From assembly GCA_017792345.1 (NCBI GenBank), contig CP051228.1, forward strand, positions 3,254,148-3,318,147: 64,000 bases of DNA, in the 5' to 3' direction. Both the position numbers and the translations under genes were made by a program. This DNA comes from Mesoflavibacter sp. GTDB taxonomy: Bacteria > Pseudomonadota > Alphaproteobacteria > UBA8366 > Aestuariispiraceae. Under the pieces are notes generated by a model that saw nothing but the letters and a program-made list of their open reading frames with translations, was not told the DNA's origin and made no database searches. Numbering within the stretch: position 1 is the first letter of the stretch; every line of letters starts with the position of its first letter. This document shows positions 20,298 to 37,663 of this stretch, one piece after another.

Positions 20298-20379
20298 GTC
20301 ATTCCCGCGCAGGCGGGAATCCAGGGCCGTCGGTACGGACTTGCCCTTTTCCCTGGATCCCCGCCTTCGCGAGGACAAC
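20298..20379. repeat. REPIN family I, copy 3 (82 bp)
   Basis: Left half GTCATTCCCGCGCAGGCGGG is perfect. The right half is decayed (GCGAGGACAAC in place of GCGGGGATGAC). It lies immediately upstream of the GIY-YIG gene. Confidence 0.78.
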
Positions 20380-20410
20380 GGTGAGGGCGGGCAAGCGGTA
20401 GTCGGAAATG

Positions 20411-20464: not shown

Positions 20465-21481
20465 TTAAATCAGGCCGTCGGCGATCATGCGTTCGGCGAT
20501 TTGGACCGTGTTCAGCGCGGCGCCCTTGCGCAGGTTGTCGGAGACGACCCACATCGAGATGCCGTTGTCGATGGTCGCGTCCTCGCGGATGCGCGAGATG
20601 TAGACTGCGTCTTCGCCGGCGCATTCGTCCGGGGTGACATAGCCTTCGTCGGCGCGGTGGTCGACGACGACGCAGCCCTCGGCCTTGCGCAGGATTTCGC
20701 GGACCTCGTCGGCGCCGGCCTCTTTCTCCAGTTCCAGGTTCACCGCCTCGGAATGGCCGATGAAGACCGGGACGCGCACACAGGTCGCGTGCAGCTTGAT
20801 CTTCGGGTCGAGGATCTTCTTGGTCTCGACCACCATCTTCCATTCTTCCTTGGTCGACCCGTCATCCATGAAGACGTCGATATGGGGAATGACGTTGAAG
20901 GCGATCTGCTTGGTGAATTTGTGACGCTCCAGCGGATCGTTCACATAGACCGCACGGGTCTGATTGAACAATTCATCCATGCCCGCCTTGCCGGCACCGG
21001 AAACCGACTGATAGGTCGACACGACGCAGCGCTTGATCCCGAAGGCCTCATGGATCGGCTTCATCGCCACGACCAACTGAATGGTCGAACAGTTCGGGTT
21101 GGCGATGATGTTCTTTTTGCCGAATTCCTTCAGCGCGTGGGGGTTCACCTCCGGCACGACCAGCGGCACGTCCGGGTCCATGCGGAAATGCGAGGTGTTG
21201 TCGATCACGACGGCCCCGGCCGCGGCGGCCTTGGGGGAGAATTCGGCGCTGACCTTGGCGCCCGGCGAGGACAGGACGATGTCCGTGCCCTTGAAGTCAT
21301 AATGCTTCAGCGCCTGCGCCTTCAGCACCGCGTCGTCGCCATAGGAGATTTCCTTGCCGATCGAGGCTTCGGAGGCCAGTGCCACCACCTCGTCAGCGGG
21401 AAAGTCCCGTTCGGCCATGATCTTCAGCATTTCCTGGCCGACATTGCCGGTGGCACCGACGACCGCAACCTTGTAACCCAT
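20465..21481 (-). CDS. asd: Aspartate-semialdehyde dehydrogenase
   Basis: A 338-residue cytosolic enzyme reducing aspartyl-4-phosphate to aspartate semialdehyde with NADPH, the branch point to lysine/DAP, threonine and methionine. Seen: NADP-binding GATGNVGQEML at the N terminus, catalytic Cys131 in NPNCSTIQL, QSVSGAGKAGMDEL, substrate-binding RVPVFIGHSEAVNLE, and DNLRKGAALNTVQIAE at the C terminus. The ATG at 21481 follows AGAAAGGAC; the longer ORF upstream is not protein-like. The leader (21571-21708) carries a Thr/Lys-coding peptide and competing hairpins, implying attenuation by two end products of its pathway. Confidence 0.96.
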   Translation of the reverse strand: MGYKVAVVGATGNVGQEMLKIMAERDFPADEVVALASEASIGKEISYGDDAVLKAQALKHYDFKGTDIVLSSPGAKVSAEFSPKAAAAGAVVIDNTSHFRMDPDVPLVVPEVNPHALKEFGKKNIIANPNCSTIQLVVAMKPIHEAFGIKRCVVSTYQSVSGAGKAGMDELFNQTRAVYVNDPLERHKFTKQIAFNVIPHIDVFMDDGSTKEEWKMVVETKKILDPKIKLHATCVRVPVFIGHSEAVNLELEKEAGADEVREILRKAEGCVVVDHRADEGYVTPDECAGEDAVYISRIREDATIDNGISMWVVSDNLRKGAALNTVQIAERMIADGLI

Positions 21482-21570
21482 TGTCTTGTCCTTTCTGTCT
21501 TGCCGCGTCTCGCGGGCGGCGGTCCTCGTCGTCAAGTCGCCTTGGGTCGGAGTCGCCCTAGCCCGCATAC

Positions 21571-21633
21571 GCTTCGGGCCGGGGTGACCCCGGCCCGATG
21601 AAGCGATCTCGCTATAGTCGGCTGCGCGGGGTC
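21571..21633 (-). promoter_or_regulatory. Putative asd attenuator: terminator hairpin and competing antiterminator
   Basis: Read on the minus strand, a 10-bp perfect stem CGGGCCGGGG-TCA-CCCCGGCCCG (plus strand 21575-21597), extendable by GCTT/AAGC with a 3-nt bulge, stands 90 bases before asd. Just after the leader stop, GACCCCG (plus 21627-21633) can instead pair with CGGGGTC (plus 21586-21592), which would consume the left arm and loop of the hairpin. These mutually exclusive pairings are the classic attenuation layout. Caveat: no U tract follows the hairpin. Confidence 0.62.
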
Positions 21634-21636
21634 CGC

Positions 21637-21708
21637 CTAGACACCGGTCGTGGTTTTCTTCGTGGTGGTTTTGGTCGTCTGTGCGACGGCCAGGGCGAAC
21701 ATACGCAT
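21637..21708 (-). CDS. Threonine/lysine-rich leader peptide before asd (23 aa)
   Basis: Too short for normal gene callers. From ATG at 21708 it encodes MRMFALAVAQ, then TTKTTTKKTTT, then GV and TAG: eleven consecutive codons made only of Thr (8) and Lys (3). AAGGA lies ten bases before this ATG. The frame is open back to an ATG at 21771 (44 residues), but the shorter form has the ribosome site and is the size of E. coli thrL (21 aa). Ribosome stalling at these codons when charged tRNA-Thr or tRNA-Lys is scarce would fit control of asd, which feeds both amino acids. The regulatory role is inferred. Confidence 0.65.
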   Translation of the reverse strand: MRMFALAVAQTTKTTTKKTTTGV

Positions 21709-21804
21709 GTCGACTACGTCCTTAAGATTTGCTTCGCCGAGTGGAAGCGGCGCAACCTTAATGCCCGTCATATTGCACCGCAAGAGTTTATTCCGGGTCC
21801 CGCG

Positions 21805-22470
21805 TCAGCCGCCGCTCTTCGGCGGCAGGTGACCGGTCTTCATCCAGAATCGCGCCCCCATGGCACCGCCCGTCACATGCAATGATGCCCCGGGCGGCAG
21901 GCGCAGCCAGGTCCCCGCGGGTAGGGTGTTGCCGTCGACGGACAGCGTCCCTTCAAGGATAAGGATCTCCGCCCCGCCCGGCAGATCGATCGCTAGGTTC
22001 GCTCCGGCGGCCAAGTCCTCCGCCGTCACGATCTCAGACTCGAATTGATGCAATGGCAGGGACTTGCGACCGCCTGTTAACCGTTGCCAGTTCGCGCTCG
22101 AGAGATCGATCTGAACGGGGGTCAGGTCCGTCGGATCGAACTGCCGCAATTTGACGAAGATCGTGCAGCCGTCCGGAACGTGCGGCCGGTGCGACGTGCC
22201 CGGCGGATTGCGCATATAGGTCCCGGCCGGATAGCGCCCATGCTCGTCCGCGAAGACGCCCTCCAGCACCAGAAACTCCTCGCCCAGATCGTGGCGGTGG
22301 GGTTTGAAATCGCTGCCGGGAATATAGCGGACGATCGAGGTCGCGCGGGCCACCTCGTCGCCGATCCGGTCCAGCATCTGGCGGTCGACCCCGGCCTGCG
22401 GCGACCGGATCCAGTCCCGGTCCTGCGGACGCGAGACGACCGGCTTGCTGAAATCGGCATTCAGTTTCAT
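21805..22470 (-). CDS. Cupin-domain protein (ChrR-like double cupin)
   Basis: A 221-residue protein with two cupin barrels. The first (residues ~40-110) has metal-ligand spacing HRHDLGEEFLVLEGVFADEHG and GTYMRNPPGTSHRP, as in the C-terminal domain of the anti-sigma factor ChrR; the second (~150-215) lacks the His pair (IDLPGGAEILILEGTLS). No anti-sigma HHCC zinc domain is present, so it is not a complete ChrR. Could be a metal-dependent enzyme or small-molecule sensor. Divergent from a TetR gene with a pair of repeated palindromic sites in between, so probably regulated by it. Confidence 0.82.
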   Translation of the reverse strand: MKLNADFSKPVVSRPQDRDWIRSPQAGVDRQMLDRIGDEVARATSIVRYIPGSDFKPHRHDLGEEFLVLEGVFADEHGRYPAGTYMRNPPGTSHRPHVPDGCTIFVKLRQFDPTDLTPVQIDLSSANWQRLTGGRKSLPLHQFESEIVTAEDLAAGANLAIDLPGGAEILILEGTLSVDGNTLPAGTWLRLPPGASLHVTGGAMGARFWMKTGHLPPKSGG

Positions 22471-23261: not shown

Positions 23262-23902
23262 GCGCCCCGGACCCAAACCGCCGCTATCCGATGCCGGGCG
23301 TTCCGCGACTGGGATTGTTGAAGAACTTTATCGAAAACCCCCGTATTCTGGTCGGCGACTATACCTATTATGACGACCCCGCAGGGCCGGAACACTTCGA
23401 GGATCGGGTCCTCTATCATTTCGACTTCGAGGACGACCGTCTGATCATCGGCAAGTTCTGCCAGATCGCGGCCGAGCCGACCTTCATGATGAACGGTGCC
23501 AATCATCGGACCGACGGGATTTCCGCTTTTCCCTTCGTGATCTTTGGCGCGGACTGGCAGGGCCGGTTCGAGGGCGAGACCGATTTCCCGAGCCGGGGCG
23601 ACATGGTCATCGGCAACGATGTTTGGATCGGCTATGGCGCCACCTTCCTGCCCGGGGTCAAGGTCGGGGACGGCGCGATCATCGCCGCGCGCTCGGTGGT
23701 CGCGTCCGACGTGCCGCCTTATACGGTCGTCGCGGGCAATCCGGCCAAGCCGATCAAGCGCCGCTTTTCCGACGGGGACATCGAGACGCTTCTGCGGCTC
23801 GCCTGGTGGGATTGGCCGGTCGATCGGATCACCGAGGCGATCCCGCTAATCTGTGCCGGCGATGTCGCGGCGTTGGAGCATTTCGCCAACGGCGGGGGGT
23901 GA
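23258..23902 (+). CDS. CatB/Vat-type hexapeptide-repeat O-acetyltransferase
   Basis: A 214-residue left-handed beta-helix transferase using acetyl-CoA. The TTG at 23258 is chosen as start because the product then opens SAPDPNRRYPMPGVPRLGLLKNF, the conserved N terminus of the Vat/CatB (xenobiotic and streptogramin-like) acetyltransferases. Other features: GDYTYYDDPAGPEHFEDRVLYHFDF, catalytic His in NGANHRTDGISAFPF, and repeated hexapeptides VIGNDVWIGYGATFLPGVKVGDGAIIAARSVV, closing with VVAGNPAKPIKRRF. TTGA overlap couples it to the TetR gene. Substrate is unknown; the family includes drug-inactivating enzymes as well as many with unknown physiological roles. Confidence 0.9.
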   Translation: MSAPDPNRRYPMPGVPRLGLLKNFIENPRILVGDYTYYDDPAGPEHFEDRVLYHFDFEDDRLIIGKFCQIAAEPTFMMNGANHRTDGISAFPFVIFGADWQGRFEGETDFPSRGDMVIGNDVWIGYGATFLPGVKVGDGAIIAARSVVASDVPPYTVVAGNPAKPIKRRFSDGDIETLLRLAWWDWPVDRITEAIPLICAGDVAALEHFANGGG

Positions 23903-23941
23903 TACAGGCCCGCGTTTCAGCGCGACCGGCCGACTGCATGC

Positions 23942-24023
23942 GTCTTTCCCGCAGGGACGGGTCTCCAGCGCCACCGGCGCGGACTTGCCCTAATCCCTGG
24001 ATCCCCGCCTTCGCGGGGATGAC
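23942..24023. repeat. REPIN family I, copy 4 (left half degenerate)
   Basis: Left half decayed (GTCTTTCCCGCAGGGACGGG); right half CCTGGATCCCCGCC-TTCG-CGGGGATGAC intact; total still 82 bp. Confidence 0.7.
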
Positions 24024-24107
24024 GGGTTTTTGGGGTAGGGAGGGGCGTGCCAATTGGGAGCGATTTAACGGGACCGCTCATTCAAACTCAATGGCTCGAA
24101 AATGCTC

Positions 24108-24189
24108 GTCATTCCCGCGCAGGCGGGAATCCAGGGCCGCCGGCAGGGATTTGCCCTAATCCCTGGATCCCCGCCTTCGCGGGGATGAC
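24108..24189. repeat. REPIN family I, copy 5
   Basis: Complete 82-bp element, both halves canonical. Confidence 0.85.
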
Positions 24190-24273
24190 GGTCTTTGAGT
24201 TAGGTAGGGGCGTGCCAACTGGGAGCGTTTTACCGGGACCGCTCATGCCAGCTCAATGAGTCGAAGAATGCTC

Positions 24274-24355
24274 GTCATTCCCGCGCAGGCGGGAATCCAG
24301 GGTCGCCGGCAGGGACTTGCCCTAATCCCTGGATCCCGGCTTTCGCCGGGATGAC
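24274..24355. repeat. REPIN family I, copy 6
   Basis: Complete 82-bp element; right half is the CCCGGC-TTTC-GCCGGG variant, showing compensatory changes on both stem sides. Confidence 0.85.
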
Positions 24356-24439
24356 GGTCTTTGAGTTAGGTAGGGGCGTGCCAACTGGGGCGCGTTTTAC
24401 CGGGACCGCTCATTCAAACTCAATGGTTCGATAATGCTC

Positions 24440-24521
24440 GTCATTCCCGCGCAGGCGGGAATCCAGGGCCGTCGGCAGGGACTTGCCCTAATCCCTGGAT
24501 CCCCGCCTTCGCGGGGATGAC
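24440..24521. repeat. REPIN family I, copy 7
   Basis: Complete 82-bp element, nearly identical to copy 5. Confidence 0.85.
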
Positions 24522-24604
24522 GGTCTTTGGGATAGGGAGGAGCGTGCCAACTGGGAGCGGATTACCGGGACCGCTCATGCCAGCTCAATGGTTCGAAAAT
24601 GCTC

Positions 24605-37354: not shown

Positions 37355-37533
37355 CCCTCTGTCTCGGAACCTGAGAGAGTCGCCAACGCGCTGCTGCGCG
37401 GGGGCTTACCCCGTCGGTGGGAGCGGTTTCCCGCTCCACTTTCCAGATCGTCCTCCGCGCCGCGGTCCTGGTGCCTGAGAGTTTCCGGGGCGGTTGCTCC
37501 TTCGGCGGCCGATCCATGGGTCGACACTCTCCC
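37355..37533 (-). promoter_or_regulatory. Tandem glycine riboswitch
   Basis: Two glycine aptamers in a row. Aptamer 1: GGGAGAGTGTCG, GCCGCCGAAGGAGCAACCG, GGAAACTCTCAGGCACCAGG, ACCGCGG. Aptamer 2: CTGGAAAGTGGAGCGGG, CACCGACGGGGTAAGCCC, GACTCTCTCAGGTTCCGAGA, CAGAGGGG. The doubled ACTCTCAGG motif and CCGA(A/C)GG loops are diagnostic. Followed by a terminator, so glycine likely permits transcription of gcvTHP. Confidence 0.93.
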
Positions 37534-37663
37534 ACAGGCGTCATCGGACTATGTCGCACTCATGCTAGACGACGCCGCTTTTCTGTCAAGGTTGCGCATA
37601 GGTGGTGCTCCACAAAAAACATCGCTCTTTTCATTTCGATGTCGATATGGAGAGTCATGCGCC

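Follow-up and report, generated by a model that had tools for sequence, protein, structure and literature searches.

A putative threonine/lysine leader-peptide attenuator upstream of asd, widespread but patchily distributed in Alphaproteobacteria

The thrL leader of enterobacteria carries Thr and Ile codons, precedes thrABC and is followed by a terminator with a U tract, while in tnaC the nascent leader peptide senses free tryptophan and the output is Rho-dependent. The element described here, upstream of the aspartate-semialdehyde dehydrogenase gene asd, is similar to thrL (the Thr_leader family) in its Thr codon-rich leader, its alternative hairpins and the aspartate-family gene downstream, but differs from it in combining Thr with Lys codons, in preceding asd, in lacking a U tract at the locus studied, and in having no Rfam match. 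With tnaC it shares a leader peptide followed by a putative termination region without a U-tract terminator, whereas the signal here would be codon starvation. Leader-peptide attenuation in an alphaproteobacterium is described, in the passages of PMC4117421 cited here, for the ilvL-type leader of Caulobacter ilvBN, which unlike the present element has Ile and Val codons and belongs to another operon. The closest described element is SEP5 of S. meliloti, a short ORF in which six Thr and three Lys codons lie close to the 3' end, located in the 5'-UTR of a gene given as 'aspartate dehydrogenase', and proposed in 2023 as a possible leader peptide (PMC10117765). In the passages of that paper cited here, Ribo-seq data and the Western blot of a tagged fusion show that it is translated, and its conservation is limited by the authors to Sinorhizobium. 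The SEP5 gene is probably asd, and on the strength of these passages SEP5 is a likely counterpart of the asd leader element. Both are Thr/Lys small ORFs before an aspartate-family gene; the same passages of PMC10117765 give no RNA structure, whereas here the element is found in several families, with asd confirmed and with co-varying alternative pairings. The remark in the initial annotation that no described case was known therefore needs qualifying. Beyond PMC10117765, no asd attenuator appears in the passages of PMC2965389, PMC4117421, PMC1273637 and PMC8632094, in term searches, or in the titles and opening lines of abstracts of the papers listed by literature searches; Vitreschak et al. 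2004, a comparative study of proteobacterial attenuators, could mention one. Rfam release 15 at the gathering threshold gives no match at the leader, either in the window or among 20 loci including L001, and at E≤10 the region 21450-21850 has two unrelated sub-threshold matches, with Thr_leader not matched.

The window, i.e. the whole 64,000-nucleotide stretch that was analysed, encodes asd on its minus strand (20465..21481, ATG at 21481, 338 aa), as had been proposed from its sequence and as is borne out by profile matches to NF011456 (E 3.8e-152) and TIGR01296 (E 1.3e-136). Upstream on the same strand is an ORF of 23 codons encoding MRMFALAVAQTTKTTTKKTTTGV (21637..21708 with its stop; ATG at 21708-21706, TAG at 21639-21637), with a candidate Shine-Dalgarno sequence, AAGGA (21719..21723, minus strand), placed 10 nt ahead of the ATG. 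Residues 11-21 of MRMFALAVAQTTKTTTKKTTTGV are eleven consecutive Thr or Lys (8 Thr and 3 Lys), and in all these particulars the sequence agrees with the initial annotation. On the other side of the leader from asd lies a cupin gene (21805-22470, PF12973). A candidate promoter can be proposed by eye on the minus strand at 21756..21784, consisting of CTTGCG (21784-21779), 17 nt and TTAAGG (21761-21756); it is absent from the output of a consensus promoter scan. Like hexamers are found in four members of the genus, L003-L006 (CTTGCG or CTTGCA, 17 nt, CTAGTG or CTAGTC), the first hexamer being partly outside the alignment in the other two, L001 and L002.

Three segments of the minus strand follow the leader. 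Segment A, GACCCCG (21627..21633), the putative 5' strand of an antiterminator, starts 3 nt past the leader stop and, together with CCGA (21619-21616), pairs with UCGG...CGGGGUC. Segment B, UCGGGCCGGGGUC (21586..21598), is a common strand that pairs with either A or C. Within it CGGGGTC, on the 5' side and loop of the hairpin, is the perfect complement of segment A, just as had been noted for GACCCCG beside the stop (21633-21627 against 21592-21586). Segment C, CCCCGGCCCGA (21574..21584), is the 3' arm of the GC hairpin B:C and occupies the position of a terminator, with no U tract after it. The hairpin, previously described as 10 bp, is perfect and located before asd as claimed, but it is longer, with perfect arms of 12 nt (21598-21587 and 21585-21574) that as RNA give 11 bp and a 3-nt loop. 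Since segment B is used by both helices, B:C and A:B are mutually exclusive, which is directly visible in the window sequence, as is the anatomy of the leader. Between the leader stop and asd the window has no U tract and its longest T run is 2 nt, as the initial annotation had conceded.

Elsewhere in the window, no branched-chain-rich leader is present among the five ORFs listed upstream of ilvB. Tandem glycine riboswitch aptamers are found at 37358-37544 on the minus strand (two RF00504 matches, 60.4 and 44.6 bits), and dispersed repeat-like sequence with translations IPAKAGIQ or FPRRRESR occurs at about 20300-20400 and at 23900-24600; these are probably intergenic repeat elements.

Regions upstream of asd came from three sources: relatives, the 80 stretches that scored best among 587 confirmed ones, and a sample drawn evenly from the class, in which asd was found at E≤1e-90 in 174 of 212 genomes and 125 new loci were taken (25 plus 100), some weaker or unlisted matches being left out. 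After five duplicates and one 22-nt piece were dropped, 249 of 255 oriented upstream regions were kept; judged by kinship or record title they are nearly all alphaproteobacterial, and they are unevenly spread, with close relatives and Hyphomicrobiales over-represented. Within 350 nt upstream of asd, 64 of the 249 regions carry an ORF with at least 7/11 Thr/Lys and 46 one with at least 8/11, compared with none of the 249 on the opposite strand at 7/11, and with dinucleotide shuffles (20 rounds, 4980 sequences), where a round yields 0.2 regions at 7/11 and no round yields any at 8/11. When all 190 residue pairs are ranked at 8/11, KT comes first (46 regions) and AT second (21). Among 926 small ORFs of the window (8-100 aa, both strands) the leader ORF alone reaches 7/11.

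Conservation of the run among related genomes had been set beforehand as a test. At 7/11 and with 450 nt searched, the Thr/Lys ORF is present in all six genomes of the genus and in 11 of the 14 of the family, and the run is found in 7 of 121 new class-draw regions (L131-L255 after dropping). The leader is therefore attached to asd in alphaproteobacteria, as had been reported, although it is no oddity of a single genome of the Rhodospirillales: it occurs in several alphaproteobacterial families, and its distribution is widespread but patchy. Within the genus (L001-L006) the N-terminus of the peptide diverges, and the Thr/Lys run and the RNA that follows it vary much less. A C-terminal TTTGV is kept in all six members, and from the last codons of the leader through the hairpin 69 of 91 alignment columns are invariant (76%), compared with 31 of 124 (25%) upstream and 9 of 85 (11%) downstream. 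The distance from the final Thr or Lys to the stop is 0-2 residues in 53 of 57 core leaders. Lysine is encoded by AAA in 187 of 239 cases in these core leaders versus 112 of 1082 in asd coding sequence (up to 900 nt per locus, near-duplicates kept in), a bias that may set how sensitively tRNA charging is read, or may prevent the run from forming structure.

No Thr/Lys ORF at 7/11 is present upstream of 22 loci from six genomes (6 hom, 8 of the aspartate-kinase family, two of them below the family cut-off, and 8 of the dapA family; the best-scoring loci, not every paralogue), ruling out at that threshold the same leader at these 22 loci; five of them have an ORF at 6/11. The end of leuB lies upstream of 8 of 57 core leaders versus 63 of 185 regions without a leader (p=0.004, with seven exported-type ORFs excluded on the basis of a string rule), a difference given no weight because relatedness is uncorrected.

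In sister families the slot of the leader is occupied by longer ORFs that start like a signal peptide, contain a Cys and end in a tail rich in Thr and Pro (L009, L010, L011, L013, L018-L023, L026, L111, L113, L117 and L118), and longer ORFs also occur at L017 and L027, within the window's own family. Several of them are followed by a hairpin with a U tract. They may be leaders that turned into exported peptides, or the reverse. The exported-type protein of L018, which has a Pfam match (TrbC) below cut-off, was considered as an independent secreted protein family, a view rejected on finding it exclusively at asd, in 2 of 42 genomes.

The pairing of A with B is kept across loci by changes on both sides: the partners are GACCCCG/CGGGGUC in the window, GAACCUC/GGGGUUC in L014, GCGGGCC/GGCCCGC in L097 and L122, and GCGGCC/GGCCGC in L132 and L144. 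Co-variation was assessed by permutation: the post-stop segment of a locus was paired with the hairpin arm of that locus and then with arms from other species. In a set of 23 loci chosen by hand after the folds had been seen (22 of the 64 leaders plus L053, at 6/11), reduced to 19 by removal of near-duplicates, the mean energy of A:B was -17.6 kcal/mol for own arms versus -13.7 kcal/mol for permuted ones, and 1 of 20000 permutations was as low. Two control segments of the same 19 loci, one within the ORF and one past the hairpin, did not differ clearly from permuted pairings, with 2935 and 3386 of 20000 permutations as low. The unselected test, on all 64 leaders (38 after dereplication), gave z -5.5 for A:B (0 of 10000), but its control region departs from expectation too, though more weakly (z -2.3, 135 of 10000), and composition or relatedness may therefore account for part of the unselected signal. 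In the 29 leaders that do not end in KTV, A:B has z -6.1 and the control -1.4. The nine leaders that do end in KTV are null by the same terminator-rule test (z -0.4), so that post-stop pairing chosen by this rule is rejected for them; a different pairing was found there. A first shuffle test, in which the hairpins were poorly chosen, was weak (18 of 64 leaders at p<0.05, four at p<0.01, the window at p=0.52). Both mutually exclusive pairings, which had been predicted from the window and whose conservation was the other test set beforehand, are kept in relatives and co-vary.

In all 19 loci the paired stretch of A:B starts between -3 and +5 nt from the end of the stop codon. As the footprint of a ribosome at the leader stop is taken to cover the region of segment A, this is a position that the terminating ribosome would cover. 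When RNA ending at the end of B is folded, A:B is predicted to form with the ribosome upstream (-31.0) and not with the ribosome at the stop (-11.8). Once complete, the transcript is predicted to fold into B:C for either position of the ribosome, which implies that the switch must be kinetic and decided during transcription.

The locus thus has a short ORF with a cluster of end-product codons before a biosynthetic gene, mutually exclusive helices with one common strand, and an antiterminator 5' strand located where a ribosome at the stop covers it; the GC hairpin followed by a U tract that marks an intrinsic terminator is not present in the window. On this evidence from sequence it is very probable that a ribosome-mediated attenuator ties asd expression to charged tRNA-Thr and tRNA-Lys. 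A shortage of either amino acid would stall the ribosome within the run and leave A free, so that A:B would form, B:C would be blocked and asd would be expressed. When both are plentiful, a ribosome at the leader stop would cover A, B:C would form and expression would be cut. Stalling, the direction of control, and the way in which B:C lowers expression are inferred from these features. The patchy distribution, at 7 of 121 class-draw regions, counts against the attenuator reading, as does the absence of a U tract throughout the genus.

A variant is found in Mesorhizobium, Chelativorans, Nitratireductor, Ochrobactrum and others of the Hyphomicrobiales, whose leaders end in KTTTKTV or similar. 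For 21 aligned loci (20 of 29 with a terminal KTV, nine near-duplicates being removed by eye, plus L093, at 6/11), RNAalifold with no structure given finds a helix between the post-stop segment and a downstream segment. This helix is 97.3% paired, with a covariation score of 0.240 versus 0.188 for shuffled alignments (reached in 0 of 500) and at most 0.151 for slid ones, and is unremarkable by two-sided pairs (2; 93 of 500 shuffles) and by further pair types (389 of 500). The end of the ORF forms a small hairpin, whose two-sided changes (GACC:GGUC, CACC:GGUG and GACG:CGUC) fall at third codon positions and leave Thr and Val unchanged. In a long-range helix, CCCUCUCC:GGAGAGGG, the outer six pairs are 95.1% paired and three of the six have two-sided changes. 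The whole structure so named is 89.6% paired, a level reached by 0 of 500 shuffles, and includes a weaker-kept hairpin (76.9% and 81.4%). As the long-range helix crosses the post-stop helix, the two are mutually exclusive unless they form a pseudoknot. It appears that the Hyphomicrobiales combine the same sensor with a helix that adjoins the ribosome-binding site of asd, which would make the output translational.

In three other genera of the window's family (L007, L014 and L025) the hairpin is followed by U6-U7, and these hairpins are, by their sequence, ordinary intrinsic terminators; at least four U in the 8 nt after the hairpin are found in 29 of 64 leaders when hairpin choice is weighted for U. 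In the window's genus none of the six members has a U tract or a T run over 3 nt, and so what had been named as the weak point of the attenuator proves a genus-wide trait. The attenuation reading of the initial annotation is supported by the comparison, except that termination in the window would have to proceed without a U tract, although the three family genera do have one. For the genus, Rho-dependent or U-less termination is the likeliest first guess, with translational control second. A Rho-dependent leader-peptide attenuator with a tnaC-like output, in which B:C or release of the ribosome would expose the RNA, is one form of the attenuator explanation and not its opposite. The strong hairpin without a U tract in all six genus members speaks for it, as does the distance of 132-158 nt from leader stop to asd, but this stretch of the window has 53 C and 53 G, with no excess of C over G, and we hold such an output to be possible, on the doubtful side. 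A translational output of the same sensor, with alternative structures opening and closing the asd ribosome-binding site, seems less probable still in the window. It is favoured by the Hyphomicrobiales, where CCCUCUCC:GGAGAGGG adjoins the asd Shine-Dalgarno sequence and crosses the post-stop A:B helix, both helices having two-sided changes in some pairs. Translational control is, however, disfavoured because the candidate Shine-Dalgarno sequence of asd in the window, AAAGGA, is unpaired in the fold expected to be repressing, in which the ribosome stands at the leader stop. The other two full-length folds pair just a few of its bases, and the U-tract terminators within the same family also argue against it.

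Two further explanations dispense with the sensor altogether. That the ORF encodes a small functional protein, its Thr/Lys tail being a matter of protein composition, would fit the longer ORFs with signal-peptide-like start and Thr-rich tail in the slot of sister families. It is very improbable given that the genus keeps the C-terminal run and the following RNA while the N-terminus diverges, that the last Thr or Lys is so close to the stop (0-2 residues in 53 of 57 core leaders), and that the RNA pairs co-vary. A chance low-complexity run beside a GC-rich hairpin might be suspected in a GC-rich genome of which a single window was inspected by eye, but it is already contradicted by the empty opposite strand (0/249), the lack of any 8/11 run in 4980 shuffles, the single case in 926 window ORFs and the conservation in the genus, leaving it a negligible probability.

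Returning to the attenuator, it is about an even question whether one Thr/Lys sensor at asd has been reused in Alphaproteobacteria with interchangeable outputs, its interleaved codons acting as an OR gate. The outputs would be an intrinsic terminator in some lineages, in the window's genus a hairpin that lacks a U tract and may depend on Rho, and in Hyphomicrobiales a masked ribosome-binding site; with the two codon types interleaved, shortage of either end product would stall the ribosome. asd acts where lysine and threonine synthesis part, and a two-amino-acid leader, if real, would explain how one enzyme can track demand for both. It would also assign a function to ORFs such as SEP5 of S. 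meliloti, and would provide a natural series in which one sensor is joined to different outputs: terminator, U-less hairpin and ribosome-binding site.
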